Source: Desulfocarbo indianensis
GTDB lineage: Bacteria; Desulfobacterota; Desulfarculia; Desulfarculales; Desulfarculaceae
DNA length: 64,000 nt
NCBI GenBank assembly: GCA_001184205.1
Contig: LBMP01000003.1
Coordinates: 62,001 to 126,000, forward strand
Direction of reading: 5' to 3'
Part shown: in pieces, positions 37,639 through 44,040 of the stretch
Layout of the letters: each line of letters opens with the position of its first letter
Numbering within the stretch: position 1 is the first letter of the stretch
Translations under genes and position numbers: made by a program
The notes under the pieces: generated by a model
What the model was told of the DNA's origin: nothing
Databases searched by the model: none
What the model saw: only the letters and a program-made list of their open reading frames with translations

Positions 37639-38280
37639 ATGGCTCAAGAAGAGCACATTTTAGCCGTGGGCGACATTCATGGCTCATATGACAGGCTGGA
37701 GCGGGTTCTTCAAGAGCTTGTTCCGTCTTTGCCCCCCGCCACGCGCCTGGTCTTTCTGGGCGATTATATTGACCGCGGACCTGACTCGCGGCAAGTCCTG
37801 GAAAGCTTGATCCGGCTCAAGAGCGAGAGGCCGGACACGGTTTTTCTTCTGGGCAATCATGAACGCATGCTCCTGGAAGTGCGCGAGGGGCGCGATCTGC
37901 TGCTTTGGTCGGTCAACGGGGGCTCTCAGACCATGGCCTCCTATGGGCTTTCCTTCCGCCGCATTAAAGACATCCCCGCCGAGCACATCGATTTTTTAAG
38001 CTCCCTGACCCTCTACCACCAAAGCGGCGATTATATCTTCGTGCACGCGGGCCTGAGGCCGGGGGTTCTCCTGGCCCAACAGGAGGAACGCGATCTGCTG
38101 TGGATCAGGGAGTCGTTTTTCCTGGCCGAACCCACCTGGGAGGGAACCGTGGTGTTCGGCCATACGCCCTTTTCCACCCCCTTCCAGCGCCCCGGTTTGA
38201 TCGGCATCGACACCGGCGCGGTGTATAACAACGTGCTGACGTGCCTCAAGCTGCCTGAAAGAAAGTTCCACCACTTCTGA
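37639..38280 (+). CDS. PPP-family metallophosphatase (serine/threonine phosphatase or ApaH-like)
   Basis: The 213 residues contain the three PPP motifs: GDIHGSYDRLERV (GDxHG), VFLGDYIDRGPDS (GDxxDRG) and FLLGNHERML (GNHE), plus downstream HAGLRPGV and VFGHTPF that give the other metal-binding His. Members dephosphorylate Ser/Thr proteins or hydrolyse Ap4A. The ATG at 37639 is the first that gives a normal N-terminus; AGGA is close to it. The acyl-CoA synthetase gene follows after 22 bases. Confidence 0.88.
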   Translation: MAQEEHILAVGDIHGSYDRLERVLQELVPSLPPATRLVFLGDYIDRGPDSRQVLESLIRLKSERPDTVFLLGNHERMLLEVREGRDLLLWSVNGGSQTMASYGLSFRRIKDIPAEHIDFLSSLTLYHQSGDYIFVHAGLRPGVLLAQQEERDLLWIRESFFLAEPTWEGTVVFGHTPFSTPFQRPGLIGIDTGAVYNNVLTCLKLPERKFHHF

Positions 38281-38302: not shown

Positions 38303-40363
38303 ATGAAGCAGTTTTATTATCCTGATTCAGTGGCCATCATCGGTGTCTCGCCGCGGGCGGGCAATCTGGGCCGCAACATCGTCGCCAACCTCAATACCTT
38401 TGGTTTCCAGGGCAAGGTTTATTACGTCTCGCCGCGGGGCGGCGAATACAAGGGAGAGCGCATCTACGCCGACGTGCGCGAACTGCCGGCCACCCCCGGC
38501 CTGGCCGTGATATTGACCCCCGCCCGCACGGTGCCCGGACTCATGGAAGCCTGCGGAGAAAAGGGAATCAAGCGGGTGGTGGTGGAGACCGGCGGCTTTT
38601 CCGAGCTGGATCAGGGCCGCGGCGAACTGGAGCTGCAGCTCAAGGAAGCGGCCCAAAAGCACGGCATGCGCTTCATCGGACCCAACTGCATCGGCCTGGT
38701 GAGCACCGACAACGGCTTGGCCATACCCTTCCCCATCATCACCCGGCCCACCAAGAAGGGCGGTCTTTCCATCGTGGCCCAGAGCGGCGGCATCGGGCTC
38801 ACCTACCTGCACCATTTCTCCGAAAGCGGCGTGGGCGTGGCCAAGTTCGCCAGCGTGGGCAACAAGCTCAACGTCAACGAGGAGGACTTCCTGGCCTACC
38901 TCATCGAGGACCCCAAGACCGAGATCATCCTCTTATATCTGGAATCCATCGTGGCCGGCCGCCGCATGTTCGAACTTATCAGCTCCACGGACAAGCCCGT
39001 GGTGGTGCACAAGTCCAACATCGGGCCCACCAGCCACCGCATAGCCCAGAGCCACACCTCGGCCCTGGCCAACGACGACGCGGTGGTGGAGGCCGCCCTG
39101 GCGCAGGCCGGAGCCATCCGCGCCCACACGGTGGACGACTGTTTCCAGATCGTCAAGGGCCTCTCCCTGCCCCGCATGAAGGGACGCCGGGTGGCGGTGA
39201 TCAGCCGCTCCGGCGGCCACGCGGTGGTGGCGGCCGACGCGGCCTACACCCAGGGCATGGACCTGCCCCAGTTTCCCGACAACTACCTGAGCGCCATTCA
39301 GGAGCACACCCGCGCCTCGGTGATCAAGTTGCAGAACCCCCTGGACTTGGGCGACCTGTTCGACTTCCACTTCAACGTGGAAATTCTGAAAGGTGCCCTG
39401 GGGCTCGCGGAGGTGGACGGGGTGCTCATCGTGCATGGCTACCGCGGCCCGGAAGTGCCCTCCTCCCGGGAATACATCGCCAAGGCCGGCGAACTTTGCC
39501 AAGAACACCAAAAGCCCGTGGCCGTGGTGCTGCTCACCGACCCCGACGAACTGGCCGAAGTCAAGAAGCTCTCCACCCTGCCCATTTTCCTGGCGCCGGA
39601 GCAGGCCATGCTGGCCTTGAAGGTAAACGCCCTGGCCGCCGCCAAACAGCCCGCCAGCGGCGGGCCAACTGGCGAGACCGTGAACCCGGCCGCCTGCCGC
39701 CAGGTTCTCAAGGCGGCCAACCCGGACGGCTCCCTGGAGCTGCCCGAGGCGCTGCGCCTCCTGGAGGTGGCCGGGGTGCCGGTGGCGCCTTTTATTGCGG
39801 TGACCAGACCCGAGGAAGCGGCCGCCGCGGCTGATATGCTGGGCTACCCGGTGGTGCTGAAAGCCGTGGGCGCCGAGGTGAGCCACAAGACCGAGCACGG
39901 CGGCGTCAAGCTGGGCCTGGCCGATTCCGAAGCACTCATCGCGGCCGCGCGGGAAATGCAGGAACGCCTTTCCCTCAAGCGCCTGGTGGTCATGAAGCAG
40001 CTTGCCGGCGGGGCGGAGGTCATCGTGGGCGCCAAGCAGGACCCGGTGTTCGGGGCCTTGATCCTCTGCGGCCTGGGCGGCGTCTTCACCGAGGTTCTGC
40101 GCGACGTGAGTCTGCGCCTGGCGCCGGTGGACGCGGGCCAGGCCCTGGCCATGCTGGATGGCCTCAAGGGCAATGCCTTGCTGAAGGGCTTCCGGGGCTC
40201 GCCGCCGGCCGACCGCCGGGCCCTGGCCCAGGTGGTGAGCAAGGTGGCGGCCCTGGCCGCGGCCCTGCCCGAGCTGGCGGAGCTGGACCTGAACCCCGTG
40301 CTGGCCGGCCCGGAGGGAGCCGTGGCGGTGGACGCCAGGGCCAATCTGCTGCCCAAACCCTAG
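38303..40363 (+). CDS. ADP-forming acyl-CoA synthetase (acetate-CoA ligase, single-chain)
   Basis: The 686 residues combine alpha and beta subunit regions. The CoA-binding domain (1-130) has SVAIIGVSPRAGNLGRN and RFIGPNCIGLVST. Two ligase-CoA domains follow (about 150-440), with the phosphorylated His in QSHTSALANDD. A C-terminal ATP-grasp domain (about 470-686) has YPVVLKAVGAEVSHKTEHGG and LDLNPVLA. Such enzymes make ATP from acyl-CoA thioesters in anaerobes or activate acids at the cost of ATP. The substrate is unknown. AAGGAG precedes the ATG. The HgdB-like gene follows with about 75 bases between. Confidence 0.88.
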   Translation: MKQFYYPDSVAIIGVSPRAGNLGRNIVANLNTFGFQGKVYYVSPRGGEYKGERIYADVRELPATPGLAVILTPARTVPGLMEACGEKGIKRVVVETGGFSELDQGRGELELQLKEAAQKHGMRFIGPNCIGLVSTDNGLAIPFPIITRPTKKGGLSIVAQSGGIGLTYLHHFSESGVGVAKFASVGNKLNVNEEDFLAYLIEDPKTEIILLYLESIVAGRRMFELISSTDKPVVVHKSNIGPTSHRIAQSHTSALANDDAVVEAALAQAGAIRAHTVDDCFQIVKGLSLPRMKGRRVAVISRSGGHAVVAADAAYTQGMDLPQFPDNYLSAIQEHTRASVIKLQNPLDLGDLFDFHFNVEILKGALGLAEVDGVLIVHGYRGPEVPSSREYIAKAGELCQEHQKPVAVVLLTDPDELAEVKKLSTLPIFLAPEQAMLALKVNALAAAKQPASGGPTGETVNPAACRQVLKAANPDGSLELPEALRLLEVAGVPVAPFIAVTRPEEAAAAADMLGYPVVLKAVGAEVSHKTEHGGVKLGLADSEALIAAAREMQERLSLKRLVVMKQLAGGAEVIVGAKQDPVFGALILCGLGGVFTEVLRDVSLRLAPVDAGQALAMLDGLKGNALLKGFRGSPPADRRALAQVVSKVAALAAALPELAELDLNPVLAGPEGAVAVDARANLLPKP

Positions 40364-40437: not shown

Positions 40438-41433
40438 ATGACCAGGGAAGTAGGCATAACCACTACGGTTCCGGTGGAAATTCTGCTGGCGGCGGGCTGC
40501 AAGCCGGTTGACCTGAACAACCGCTTCATCACCCATGCCGACCCGGCCGGGCTGGTGCGCGAGGCCGAGGAGCTGGGCATGGCCCGCACCCTGTGCGCCT
40601 GGATCAAGGGCATCTACGCCTGGGCCCTGGCCAATCCCCAGATGGAAACCGTGATCGCGGTGACCCAGGGCGATTGCTCCAACACCCACGCCCTGATGGA
40701 GCTTCTGGCCCTGGCCGGACGGCGGGTGATCCCCTTTGACTTCCCCTATGGCCGCGACCCCCAGGCCATCGCCGACCAGTTGACCCGCCTGGCGCGGGCC
40801 CTGGGCACCACCGTGGACCAGGCCGAGGAGGTGCGGCAAGGCCTGGCCGGCCTGCGCGCGGATTTGGCCTGCCTGGATGAAATGACCTGGCGAGAGGGCA
40901 AGGTATCCGGCGGCGAGAACCACCTCTGGCTGGTCAGCTCCAGCGATTTCGACGGCGACCCCGATGAATTCCACGGCCGCCTCAAGGATTTTTTGGCCCA
41001 GGCCCGGGAAAGGCCGCCGCGCCCCAAGGCCAAGGCCAGGCTGGGGGTGCTGGGCGTGCCCACCATCATGAGCGATCTGCATCAATGCCTGGAGGCGTTG
41101 GGCGCGGAGGTGGTCTATAACGAGATTCCGCGCCAGTTCGCCATGCTGCCCACCGGCAATGGCGATGATGAATCCCTGGTGGAGCAATACCGGCGCTACA
41201 CTTATCCTTATGACGTGTTTCACCGCATGGAAGATATAAAAGAGCAGATCGCCCTGCGGGGCCTGGACGGGCTGGTGCACTACACCCAGTCCTTCTGCTT
41301 CCGCCAAATGCAGGATTTGGTGCTGCGCGAGGGGCTTAAGCTGCCCATGCTCACCCTGGAAGGCGACCGGGTGGGCCCGGTGGACGCCCGCACCCGCCTG
41401 CGCCTGGAGGCTTTCGTCGATGTGCTCCGCTAG
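40438..41433 (+). CDS. 2-hydroxyacyl-CoA dehydratase D-component family protein, possible double-cubane cluster protein
   Basis: The 331 residues belong to the HgdB/BcrB-type family: ITTTVPVEILLAAGCKPVDLNN at the start, VTQGDCSNTHALMELL and YTQSFCFRQMQD. Cys21, Cys53, Cys80 and Cys287 lie at places expected for cluster ligands. Dehydratases and benzoyl-CoA reductases use two such subunits; here only one is present, followed by an activase. That pattern is known for the single-component double-cubane cluster proteins (YjiM-like), which perform ATP-driven reductions of small molecules. The ATG at 40438 starts the conserved region; the longer frame from 40366 is not protein-like. Its stop overlaps the activase by 14 bases. 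The substrate is unknown. Confidence 0.82.
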   Translation: MTREVGITTTVPVEILLAAGCKPVDLNNRFITHADPAGLVREAEELGMARTLCAWIKGIYAWALANPQMETVIAVTQGDCSNTHALMELLALAGRRVIPFDFPYGRDPQAIADQLTRLARALGTTVDQAEEVRQGLAGLRADLACLDEMTWREGKVSGGENHLWLVSSSDFDGDPDEFHGRLKDFLAQARERPPRPKAKARLGVLGVPTIMSDLHQCLEALGAEVVYNEIPRQFAMLPTGNGDDESLVEQYRRYTYPYDVFHRMEDIKEQIALRGLDGLVHYTQSFCFRQMQDLVLREGLKLPMLTLEGDRVGPVDARTRLRLEAFVDVLR

Positions 41434-42196
41434 GGCCATGGCCTGGCCGCCGGAGCCCCGGGCGGGCCTGGATCTGGGCAGCCGCACGGTGAAGCTGTGC
41501 GTGGCCGGGCCCCAGGGCGTCCTGCACAGCCGCCTTCTGGAAGCGGTGCCCTTTGTGCTGGCCGCCCGCTGCAACGGCAGCCTGGACCCCGCCGCGCTGG
41601 ATCTGGACCCGGCCTGGCCCCTGACCTACACCGGCTACGGCCGGGCGGCGCTCAGCGGCGTGCAGGGCATCAGCGAAATCCGGGCCCATTTTCGCGGGGC
41701 CTTGTTGCAAACCGGGCTCGGCGATTTTACCTTGGTGGAGTTGGGCGGGCAGGACAGCAAGGTAATCCAGGTGGAGGGCGGCCGGGTCATGGATTTCGTC
41801 ACCAATGACCGCTGCGCCGCCGGCACCGGCCGCTATCTGGAAAACATGGCCCGGCTGCTGGGCGTGGAGCTCGGTGATTTGGCGGCCTGCCATGAGGACC
41901 CGGTGGAGATCAACAACACCTGCGCCACCTTTGGCGAGACCGAAATCCTGGCCCGCCTCATGGAGGGAGCGCCCTTGGCCAGCATCATGGCCGGGGTGAA
42001 TCTTTCCGTGGCCCGCCGGGTGGCCCAAATGGTGCGCCGCTACCGGCCGCGCACCCTGGTCTTCTGCGGAGGCGTGGCCCTGAATCAGGCGGTGGTGGAG
42101 CTGTGCGGCCGGGTGATAGGCTGCCGGGTGCTGGTGCCGCCGCAACCCCAACTGAACGGCGCCCTGGGCTGCTGCCTGGAACCGGACGCCATTTGA
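41420..42196 (+). CDS. BcrAD/HgdC-type ATP-dependent activase (CoA-substrate-specific enzyme activase)
   Basis: The 258 residues form an ASKHA ATPase fold: RAGLDLGSRTVKLCVAG (phosphate 1), LVELGGQDSKVIQVEGG (phosphate 2), and VFCGGVALNQAVVELCG (adenosine). Cys132 in RCAAGTGRYLE and Cys168 in NNTCATFGETE would each hold half of the 4Fe-4S cluster bridging a homodimer. It couples ATP hydrolysis to low-potential electron delivery to the upstream HgdB-like partner. The first ATG (41420) overlaps that gene; a second at 41438 is possible. An Mrp carrier follows within 21 bases, making one operon. Confidence 0.88.
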   Translation: MCSARAMAWPPEPRAGLDLGSRTVKLCVAGPQGVLHSRLLEAVPFVLAARCNGSLDPAALDLDPAWPLTYTGYGRAALSGVQGISEIRAHFRGALLQTGLGDFTLVELGGQDSKVIQVEGGRVMDFVTNDRCAAGTGRYLENMARLLGVELGDLAACHEDPVEINNTCATFGETEILARLMEGAPLASIMAGVNLSVARRVAQMVRRYRPRTLVFCGGVALNQAVVELCGRVIGCRVLVPPQPQLNGALGCCLEPDAI

Positions 42197-42216
42197 TACA
42201 GCGAAAGGAGTCCCCC

Positions 42217-43269
42217 GTGATTGATGAAATGTTCCGCAAGGCGCTAGCCAATGTGCGCTATCCCGGTTTTGAAGTGGATATCGTCGCCATGGACCTGGTG
42301 GAGGAGGCCGGCCTGCAGGGCGGCGTGGCCAAGATAAAACTGCGCGCGGTGCAGGCCCCGCCCCAGGTGCGCGAAGACCTGGAAAACGCCGTGGCCGCGG
42401 CGGTGATGGAGATACCGGGCGTCAAGGAATTGCAGCTTGATTTCCCCGAGCCGCCCAAGCCCAAGGCCGAGGAGCCAAAGGGCCCCCATCCCGTGGCCGG
42501 GGTGAGCGCCATCGTGCCGGTGGCCTCCGGCAAGGGCGGCGTGGGCAAAAGCACCGTGGCGGTCAACCTGGCCCTGGGCCTGGCCAGGCAAGGCCTCAAG
42601 GTGGGCCTCCTGGACCTGGACCTTTACGGTCCCTCGGTGCCCATCATGCTGGGGCTCAAGGACGCCGAGCCGGAAAGCGACGGCAACAAGCTTAAACCCA
42701 TCGAGGCCCACGGCCTCAAGGTCATGTCCATCGGCTTCATGATCCCCCCGGAAAAGGCCCTGATCTGGCGGGGGCCCCTGATCATGAAAGCGGTGCGCCA
42801 ATTGCTGCACGAGGTATCCTGGGCGCCCCTGGACGTGCTGGTCCTGGACCTGCCTCCCGGCACCGGCGACGTGCAGATTTCCATGACCCAGGAGGTGCCC
42901 ATCACCGGCGCGGTGGTGGTGACAACCCCCCAGGACGTGGCCCTGGTGGACGCGGTCAAGGGCGTGGACATGTTCCAGCAGACCGGCGCGCCGGTTTTGG
43001 GCATCGTGGAAAACATGAGCTACTTTATCTGCTCGGAGTGCGACGCCCGGCACGAGATCTTCGGCCACGGCTCGGTGGAGCCCCTGTGCCGCAAGCTGGG
43101 CGTGGACTTCCTGGGCGAGCTGCCCCTGGACACCCAGGTCCGCCAGCAGGCCGACCAGGGCCGGCCCGCGGTGAACGGCGATTCGGCCGCCTCCCAGGCC
43201 TACCGCGAGCTGGCCGGCAAGATCAAGGCCAAGCTGGTCAAGCTGGGGGCCATCAAGGAGGTCGCCTGA
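42217..43269 (+). CDS. Mrp/NBP35-family Fe-S cluster carrier ATPase
   Basis: The protein has 350 residues. The N-terminal MIP18/DUF59-like domain (1-80) has LANVRYPGFEVDIVAMDLV. The ATPase domain has the deviant Walker A SGKGGVGKSTVAVNLA near residue 105, DLDLYGPSVPIMLGL (switch I), DLPPGTGDVQISM (switch II) and near residue 271 CSECDARHEIFG with the CxxC that bridges a 4Fe-4S cluster in the dimer. The GTG at 42217 is chosen because AAAGGAG lies seven bases before. Mrp transfers clusters to apo-proteins; its position after the HgdB/activase pair and before a NifU-type scaffold suggests maturation of those proteins. Confidence 0.92.
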   Translation: MIDEMFRKALANVRYPGFEVDIVAMDLVEEAGLQGGVAKIKLRAVQAPPQVREDLENAVAAAVMEIPGVKELQLDFPEPPKPKAEEPKGPHPVAGVSAIVPVASGKGGVGKSTVAVNLALGLARQGLKVGLLDLDLYGPSVPIMLGLKDAEPESDGNKLKPIEAHGLKVMSIGFMIPPEKALIWRGPLIMKAVRQLLHEVSWAPLDVLVLDLPPGTGDVQISMTQEVPITGAVVVTTPQDVALVDAVKGVDMFQQTGAPVLGIVENMSYFICSECDARHEIFGHGSVEPLCRKLGVDFLGELPLDTQVRQQADQGRPAVNGDSAASQAYRELAGKIKAKLVKLGAIKEVA

Positions 43270-43505
43270 TGAGCGCGCCCACGCGGGAGCAGGTGGAGGC
43301 CGCCCTGGATCAGGCGCGGCCCGAGCTGGTCAAGCACGGCGGCAACGTGGAGCTTTTGGGGGTCAATGATCAGGGCGTGGTGCTGGTGCGCCTGGTGGGG
43401 GCCTGCTCCGGCTGCAAGCACGCCAACGCCACCCTGAGCAACATCATCGGCAAGACCCTGAAGGAGCTCCTGCCCGGCATAAGCCGGGTGGACGCCCTGA
43501 TGTGA
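43269..43505 (+). CDS. NifU C-terminal domain Fe-S scaffold protein
   Basis: The 78 residues match the NifU-like domain: VEAALDQARPELVKHGGNVELL, VRLVGACSGCKHANATL with the two Cys of CSGC, and GKTLKELLPGISRVDAL. This short form (NfuA C-terminal type) holds a 4Fe-4S cluster between two subunits. The ATG at 43269 overlaps the Mrp TGA by one base, a coupled pair. It ends the rightward Fe-S block. Confidence 0.92.
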   Translation: MSAPTREQVEAALDQARPELVKHGGNVELLGVNDQGVVLVRLVGACSGCKHANATLSNIIGKTLKELLPGISRVDALM

Positions 43506-43511
43506 GGCGGC

Positions 43512-44040
43512 CTACAAGAGCCCGCTGAACAGGCCGCCGTCTATCCAGTATGACGCGCCGGTGATGTAGGACGCGCGCTCCGAGGCCAGGAAGACCACCA
43601 GGTCGGCGAACTCCTCGGGCCTTCCCAAACGGCCCAGGGGTATGTCCTTGACCACCGCGGCCAGAGCCTCGTCCCGGCTTATGCCCTGGCTTTGGGCGCG
43701 GTGGTTCAGGATGGCCTCCACCCGCTCGGTGTGGATGTAGCCGGGCAGCACGTTGTTCACGGTCACGCCCAGGGCGGCGATGGCTTCCTCGATGAAAGCC
43801 CCGCCCGCGCCGCTTTGGCTCAGGTCCGCGGGCTTGCTCCACACCTTTACCCCGTAGCGATCTTCTATCTCGCCGGCCGTCTTGGCCAGGCCTTCAGCCT
43901 CCCTGGCGCAAAGGGCCAGATCACAGCCTTCCGTTGCCAAGCCCAGGGCCACGGCCCGGCCCAGTCCCCGGCTGGCCCCGGCCCAGTCCCCGGCTGGCCC
44001 CGGCCACCGCCGCTGTTTTGCCTTTAAGGCCGGTTTCCAT
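43512..44040 (-). pseudogene. Broken SDR (FabG-like) gene: frameshift by tandem duplication plus internal deletion
   Basis: The true start is ATG 44038-44040, preceded by GGAGGAAG, and encodes METGLKGKTAAVAGASRGLG. A 22-base segment is present twice in tandem (43962-44005), shifting the frame. With one copy removed, the nucleotide-binding motif GASRGLGRAVALGLATEG reads intact. The downstream frame then jumps from FIEEAIAALG straight to VTVNNVLPGYIHTERV. Normal SDRs have about 85-95 residues between these points, including the NNAG strand, catalytic Ser and YxxxK. The C-terminal part (IPLGRLGRPEEFADLVVFLAS, YITGASYWIDGG) is intact. So two separate lesions are seen, and no active enzyme can result. 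Its start overlaps the stop of the ABC gene upstream by 17 bases. Confidence 0.88.
43962..44005. repeat. 22-bp perfect tandem duplication in SDR pseudogene
   Basis: CAGTCCCCGGCTGGCCCCGG plus CC occurs at 43962-43983 and again at 43984-44005 without a spacer. Since 22 is not a multiple of three it shifts the frame. The unit codes the glycine-rich loop of the SDR. A slippage or assembly event could cause it. Confidence 0.9.

Follow-up and report, generated by a model that had tools for sequence, protein, structure and literature searches.

Two adjoining genes in a stretch of Desulfocarbo indianensis DNA (contig LBMP01000003.1), analysed over its full 64,000 nucleotides and referred to here as the window, encode an HGD-D protein (P0001) and an activase (P0002) which we propose to be a non-orthologous replacement of QueF, that is an ATP-dependent Fe-S reductase that would convert preQ0 to preQ1 (probability about 0.8 on the genomic evidence). 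PreQ0 is 7-cyano-7-deazaguanine, a nitrile, and preQ1 is the aminomethyl base, the QueF step between the two in queuosine tRNA modification taking four electrons. We also think it likely that anaerobes of several phyla make preQ1 with a [4Fe-4S] enzyme from the benzoyl-coenzyme A (CoA) reductase/dehydratase family, to which an activase supplies electrons at the expense of ATP. The proposal builds on gene content, cysteine pattern, fold, queuosine (Q) operon context, mutual exclusion with QueF and a separate activase clade. A distribution complementary to that of QueF and a place in operons with preQ0 synthesis genes, as looked for in a preQ0 reductase, were both observed, and they point to preQ0 reduction and not to the small gases or acyl-CoA substrates favoured by an earlier interpretation made from the letters of the window (the sequence-only reading). 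The block itself was described correctly there: genes for the HGD-D (HgdB-type) protein, the activase, the Mrp carrier and the NifU C-terminal scaffold follow one another closely in this order, with gaps or overlaps of at most 20 bp. All four have the orientation given, and the identity of each is borne out by its Pfam match. The proposed enzyme comprises the first two:

40438..41433, + strand: HGD-D protein P0001, 331 amino acids, Pfam HGD-D 105 bits; proposed catalytic subunit of a preQ0 reductase
41420..42196, + strand: ATP-dependent activase P0002 (BcrAD/BadFG, ASKHA fold), Pfam BcrAD_BadFG 114 bits; TIGR00241

Among 297 Desulfobacterota genomes the P0001 family was found in 85 and QueF in 143, with both in only 4 where 41 would be expected and neither in 73 (Fisher p = 2e-24), and the same exclusion was seen among genomes with an epoxyqueuosine reductase (p = 1e-22); it tells against these genome-level values that the sampled genomes share ancestry and independence is thereby overstated, so that the safer figure is the family-level test, in which the P0001 family occurs in 22 taxonomic families, QueF in 62 and both in 5 (p = 2.5e-6). 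In three families (f1, f15 and f54) some genomes have the P0001 family, others have QueF and none has the two together, and in f1, to which the source genome belongs, the only sampled genome lacking the P0001 family (G006) has QueF. In the Firmicutes none of 42 carriers of the P0001 family has QueF in comparison with 7 of 38 non-carriers (p = 0.004). Of the other pathway genes, QueH or QueG was found in 76 of the 81 Desulfobacterota carriers that lack QueF and QueC in 32 of 40 carriers tested. The source genome has QueC and QueH and lacks QueF, which leaves preQ0 to preQ1 as the step without an assigned enzyme.

In order to look at genomic context we surveyed 152 loci holding 2036 neighbour genes, using a composition-aware gene caller as GC-rich loci hold long antisense open reading frames. 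The immediate neighbours of the P0001-family gene vary by phylum and preQ0/queuosine genes recur among them, Q genes making up 39 of the 2036 neighbours and being spread over 22 loci. The clearest arrangement is on pILYOP01 of Ilyobacter polytropus, where HGD-D, activase, queD, queE, folE and queC lie on one strand with gaps of no more than 13 bp, a complete preQ0 operon plus the HGD-D/activase pair. The pair is annotated there as '2-hydroxyacyl-CoA dehydratase' and 'acyl-CoA dehydratase activase', the former being the current annotation of this widespread HGD-D family. In a preQ0 operon queF is the gene usual at that place, as in queCDEF of B. subtilis. A Firmicutes genome (G229) has HGD-D and activase genes overlapping by 4 bp and followed by QueC, QueD and QueE (in NCBIfam QueC scores above cut-off and QueD just below, QueE being assigned by best match), and locus L091 is similar. 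QueE lies directly upstream in 14 Armatimonadota-type loci, and in Desulfarculaceae loci QueC comes after Mrp-NifU. In Armatimonadota-type loci QueE is accompanied by a gene that we take from our own reading of its sequence to be DUF366-like. This gene (~185 amino acids) is repeatedly linked to QueE and the P0001 family (L046, L050, L051, L053, L060, L061, L066, L067, L069, L098, L107, L114 and L187); it may itself be part of the deazaguanine pathway. Other Firmicutes neighbours, namely GlmE/S/L and methylaspartate ammonia-lyase of glutamate fermentation and MurI/RNase PH/RdgB, were set aside as clade-specific, being absent from the loci of other phyla. No preQ1 riboswitch reached the gathering score in the window or in the eight loci tried.

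An activase gene directly follows the P0001-family gene in 52 of the 152 loci, often overlapping it. These HGD-D-linked activases, P0002 among them, form one clade with 100/100 support, apart from 28 other activases of such genomes that include those adjoining dehydratases and double-cubane cluster proteins (DCCPs); since clustering by similarity was used to collect the linked set, the tree may miss linked activases that are outliers. P0002 itself belongs among the activases, as it scores 163.7 bits against TIGR00241 (cut-off 125.4), carries both cluster cysteines (Cys132 and Cys168, counted from the ATG at 41420) and matches the solved activases HadI, HgdC and DCCP-R. An alternative start at ATG 41438 would give a 4-bp gap after P0001 in place of the overlap. 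The sequence-only reading was right to see one HgdB-type subunit paired with a dedicated ATP-dependent activase.

P0001 is a member of the HGD-D (BCR-HAD) superfamily, scoring 105 bits against PF06050 (cut-off 28.4) over profile positions 2-342 of 342. Its AlphaFold (AF2) model (predicted local distance difference test score, pLDDT, 92.9) has the superfamily fold of two alpha/beta domains and a helical middle domain and matches known members with Z scores of 25-32 across at least 314 residues, including Z of ~30-32 to BzdN, DCCP and HadC at 16-21% identity. The structural alignments start at target residue 27-67, so P0001 is without the N-terminal extension of its solved relatives. Within the superfamily the P0001 family is sharply set off, with close relatives at E < 1e-80 and 44-68% identity and the next HGD-D proteins at ~1e-7. 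At least 578 relatives turned up in a pattern scan, and the 80 best among them come from Firmicutes, Desulfobacterota, Nitrospirota, Armatimonadota/Zipacnadia, Planctomycetota, Coatesbacteria and others, and no member was found among 50,697 phage records. The family is almost always single copy per genome and its member is the sole HGD-D protein in 10 of 30 sampled genomes, which argues for a homo-oligomer. P0001 is probably a single HgdB-type subunit forming a homo-oligomer with low-potential Fe-S chemistry. The absence of a second HgdB-like subunit noted previously holds for the block; the source genome has four other HGD-D genes, all elsewhere. At three loci (L052, L136 and L137) an overlapping gene for a ~360-amino-acid protein, apparently a DUF2229/HGD-D-type relative, precedes the P0001-family gene, and at L052 and L137 an overlapping RNA 3'-phosphate cyclase (RtcA-like) gene follows it.

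The cysteines of P0001 are Cys21, 53, 80, 145, 217 and 287. The positions highlighted by the sequence-only reading (Cys21, 53, 80 and 287, and Cys132 and 168 of the activase) are correct, but Cys21 is kept in only 5 of 58 family members, and it is Cys53, Cys80 and Cys287 that are invariant in all 58, giving the three-cysteine pattern of HadB and BzdO. In those two proteins three cysteines hold a [4Fe-4S] cluster with one iron open, whereas the [8Fe-9S] cluster of BzdN has six cysteine ligands (PMC11971306).

This pattern bears directly on the suggestion that the block is a DCCP system, in which a homodimer bearing [8Fe-9S] clusters would act as a reductase of small molecules. P0001 does share the DCCP fold (Z ~31 to 6eno and 7yzm), combines a single subunit with an activase and weakly matches the NCBIfam double_cubane model NF040772; it reaches however only 33 of the 350 bits set as the cut-off there, with other members of the family at 56-63 bits, and we rejected the assignment, to which we now give only a very small probability. 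When 58 members of the family were aligned with 12 DCCP orthologues, C77, C96 and C130 (numbered by the DCCP of the source genome) were seen to be invariant in 12/12 DCCPs and absent in 58/58 P0001-family members, which have T, N and a gap in these columns, while C53, C80 and C287 are common to all 70 sequences. Structure prediction, which had been suggested as a check on 8Fe-9S capacity, returns the superfamily fold. The cysteines for a second cubane are lacking in the alignment. The source genome has a true DCCP on a separate contig (G000:C290:313940-314983, locus L116) that scores 482 bits, and no activase match adjoins its gene. A preQ1-I riboswitch-like motif picked up by a loose pattern 5' of that gene gave no Rfam match at E up to 3, is not kept in relatives and was put down to chance.

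As for the reaction, we infer the substrate, the cluster type, the electron path and the use of free preQ0 rather than preQ0-tRNA. On the cysteine pattern each P0001 chain probably carries one site-open [4Fe-4S] cluster on Cys53, Cys80 and Cys287, so that, like HadB and BzdO, it would have one open iron. A separate cluster on Cys132/Cys168 would bridge the activase dimer, which would take electrons from ferredoxin or flavodoxin and, like HadI and DCCP-R, hydrolyse ATP to drive single low-potential electrons into the P0001 oligomer. PreQ0 would then bind with its nitrile on the open iron or close to it, within a pocket lined by polar residues that are invariant, and be reduced stepwise with four electrons and four protons to preQ1. 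The family has many such residues (D25, N27, N28, D79, E88, R140, N161, D170, E229, Q233, H281 and Q284), consistent with a nucleobase pocket. Relatives of the P0001 fold power very low-potential reductions (PMC11971306), and the P0001/activase pair is most likely an oxygen-sensitive iron-sulfur enzyme turning nitrile into amine en route to the tRNA base queuosine.

Several observations weigh against a QueF replacement of this kind. About 60% of the loci are without an adjacent activase, and one genome in a single contig of 3,655,731 bases (G003) has one PF01869 activase match, of the other clade, against six HGD-D genes; either the activase is shareable between enzymes or the need of P0001 for one is unproven. 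The genome with six HGD-D genes suggests that one activase may serve several enzymes. QueC is absent in 8 of the 40 carriers tested, so that these would need to import preQ0 or the protein would have another role there; preQ0 import is known (PMC11130926, PMC6593275). Four genomes hold QueF together with the P0001 family, two of which (G492 and G532, family f87) have a divergent version. At loci L210, L211 and L173 of this family the member found alongside QueF scores ~255 bits and may be a paralogue that serves a different function. QueC without either QueF or the P0001 family was seen in at least two genomes that consist of a single contig (G076 and G464), and Desulfobacterota of the same make-up occur in family f22 and others; such genomes may have a third preQ0 reductase or import preQ1.

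Another step in queuosine metabolism would account for the same context and distribution, with P0001 either reducing preQ0 after its insertion into tRNA by Tgt or processing a salvaged deazaguanine, and the carriers without QueC would fit this as well. We consider it unlikely, as the exclusion is specific to QueF, nearly all carriers have QueH and a place beside queD/E/C in an operon suits a step on the free base. Our initial hypothesis, that P0001 replaces the epoxyqueuosine reductase QueG/QueH, could draw on QueE and QueC as neighbours and on a chemistry that is dehydration-like, but was rejected and retains next to no probability with QueH present in 249 of the 297 Desulfobacterota genomes, nearly all carriers among them.

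A role on CoA esters, as a 2-hydroxyacyl-CoA dehydratase or an acyl-CoA reductase fed by the ADP-forming acyl-CoA synthetase encoded upstream, agrees with the fold, the activase and the presence of the synthetase gene in most Desulfarculaceae loci. It leaves the linkage to preQ0 genes and the exclusion of QueF unexplained, the synthetase is unlinked outside that family and the N-terminal extension of the solved relatives is missing, and we regard it as quite improbable. The synthetase was found 74 bp upstream as the sequence-only reading had reported, but as a clue to the substrate it fails, and no role for it in the proposed preQ0 reaction is evident. Mrp and NifU had been thought to mark a dedicated Fe-S maturation route; their linkage to the P0001 family is likewise confined to Desulfarculaceae, with one Planctomycetota case for NifU, so that neither the nature of the system nor its substrate can be read from these genes or that of the synthetase.

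Returning to preQ0 reduction, QueF (NADPH-dependent 7-cyano-7-deazaguanine reductase, T-fold) catalyses the reaction that we propose and occupies the same place in Q operons, but has an unrelated fold and works with NADPH and a catalytic Cys thioimide, where the P0001 system would rely on Fe-S clusters and on electrons driven by ATP. DCCP and its reductase (PDB 6eno / 7yyl) resemble the pair in fold, in combining a single-subunit enzyme with an ASKHA activase and in three cluster cysteines, P0001 differing in lacking the further DCCP cysteines and a ~66-residue N-terminal part and in having its own family and activase clade. HadBC (2-hydroxyacyl-CoA dehydratases) and BcrBC/BzdNO (class I benzoyl-CoA reductases) share the fold and an ATP-driven activase, and HadB and BzdO the three-Cys site, but are heterodimers acting on CoA esters, whereas P0001 is lone, shorter and preQ0-linked. 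TudS (4-thio-UMP desulfidase) is of the same superfamily and also has a modified nucleotide as substrate (PMC11971306), unlike P0001 being single-domain with sulfur-removing chemistry.

To our knowledge no biological enzyme other than QueF is known to convert a nitrile into an amine by reduction. If our proposal is true, P0001 would be the first such reductase in biology beyond the T-fold of QueF and would represent a CoA-independent branch of this radical enzyme family with a nucleobase as substrate. For a large proportion of anaerobes it would close the gap between preQ0 and preQ1 in a vitamin-like pathway; it would also provide a widespread HGD-D family with a physiological substrate and change calls of queuosine auxotrophy, as genomes without QueF are interpreted as preQ1-dependent (PMC6593275). 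Our literature search found no link of the P0001 family to queuosine; most subscription papers and preprints lay outside it and earlier publication is possible.

The genes surrounding the pair in the window are as follows:

37639..38280, + strand: metallophosphatase-like gene (from gene clusters), also preceding the HGD-D gene in other Desulfobacterota
38303..40363, + strand: ADP-forming acyl-CoA synthetase (Pfam ATP-grasp_5, Succ_CoA_lig and CoA_binding_2)
42217..43269, + strand: Mrp/ApbC-type Fe-S carrier with MIP18-like N-terminus, Pfam NUBPL-type ParA 330 bits
43269..43505, + strand: NifU C-terminal (Nfu) scaffold domain protein with CxxC at 46/49, Pfam NifU 73 bits

The Mrp gene starts at GTG 42217, preceded by AAAGGAG, and its product scores 340 bits against the ApbC model PRK11670, slightly below the cut-off of 348; the NifU-domain gene overlaps its stop by 1 bp. 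Beyond the block a short-chain dehydrogenase gene at 43512-44040 of the window (- strand) is frameshifted just past the Rossmann glycine motif by a 22-bp tandem duplication (GGGGCCAGCCGGGGACTGGGCC twice), possibly reflecting a pseudogene, slippage or an assembly error.

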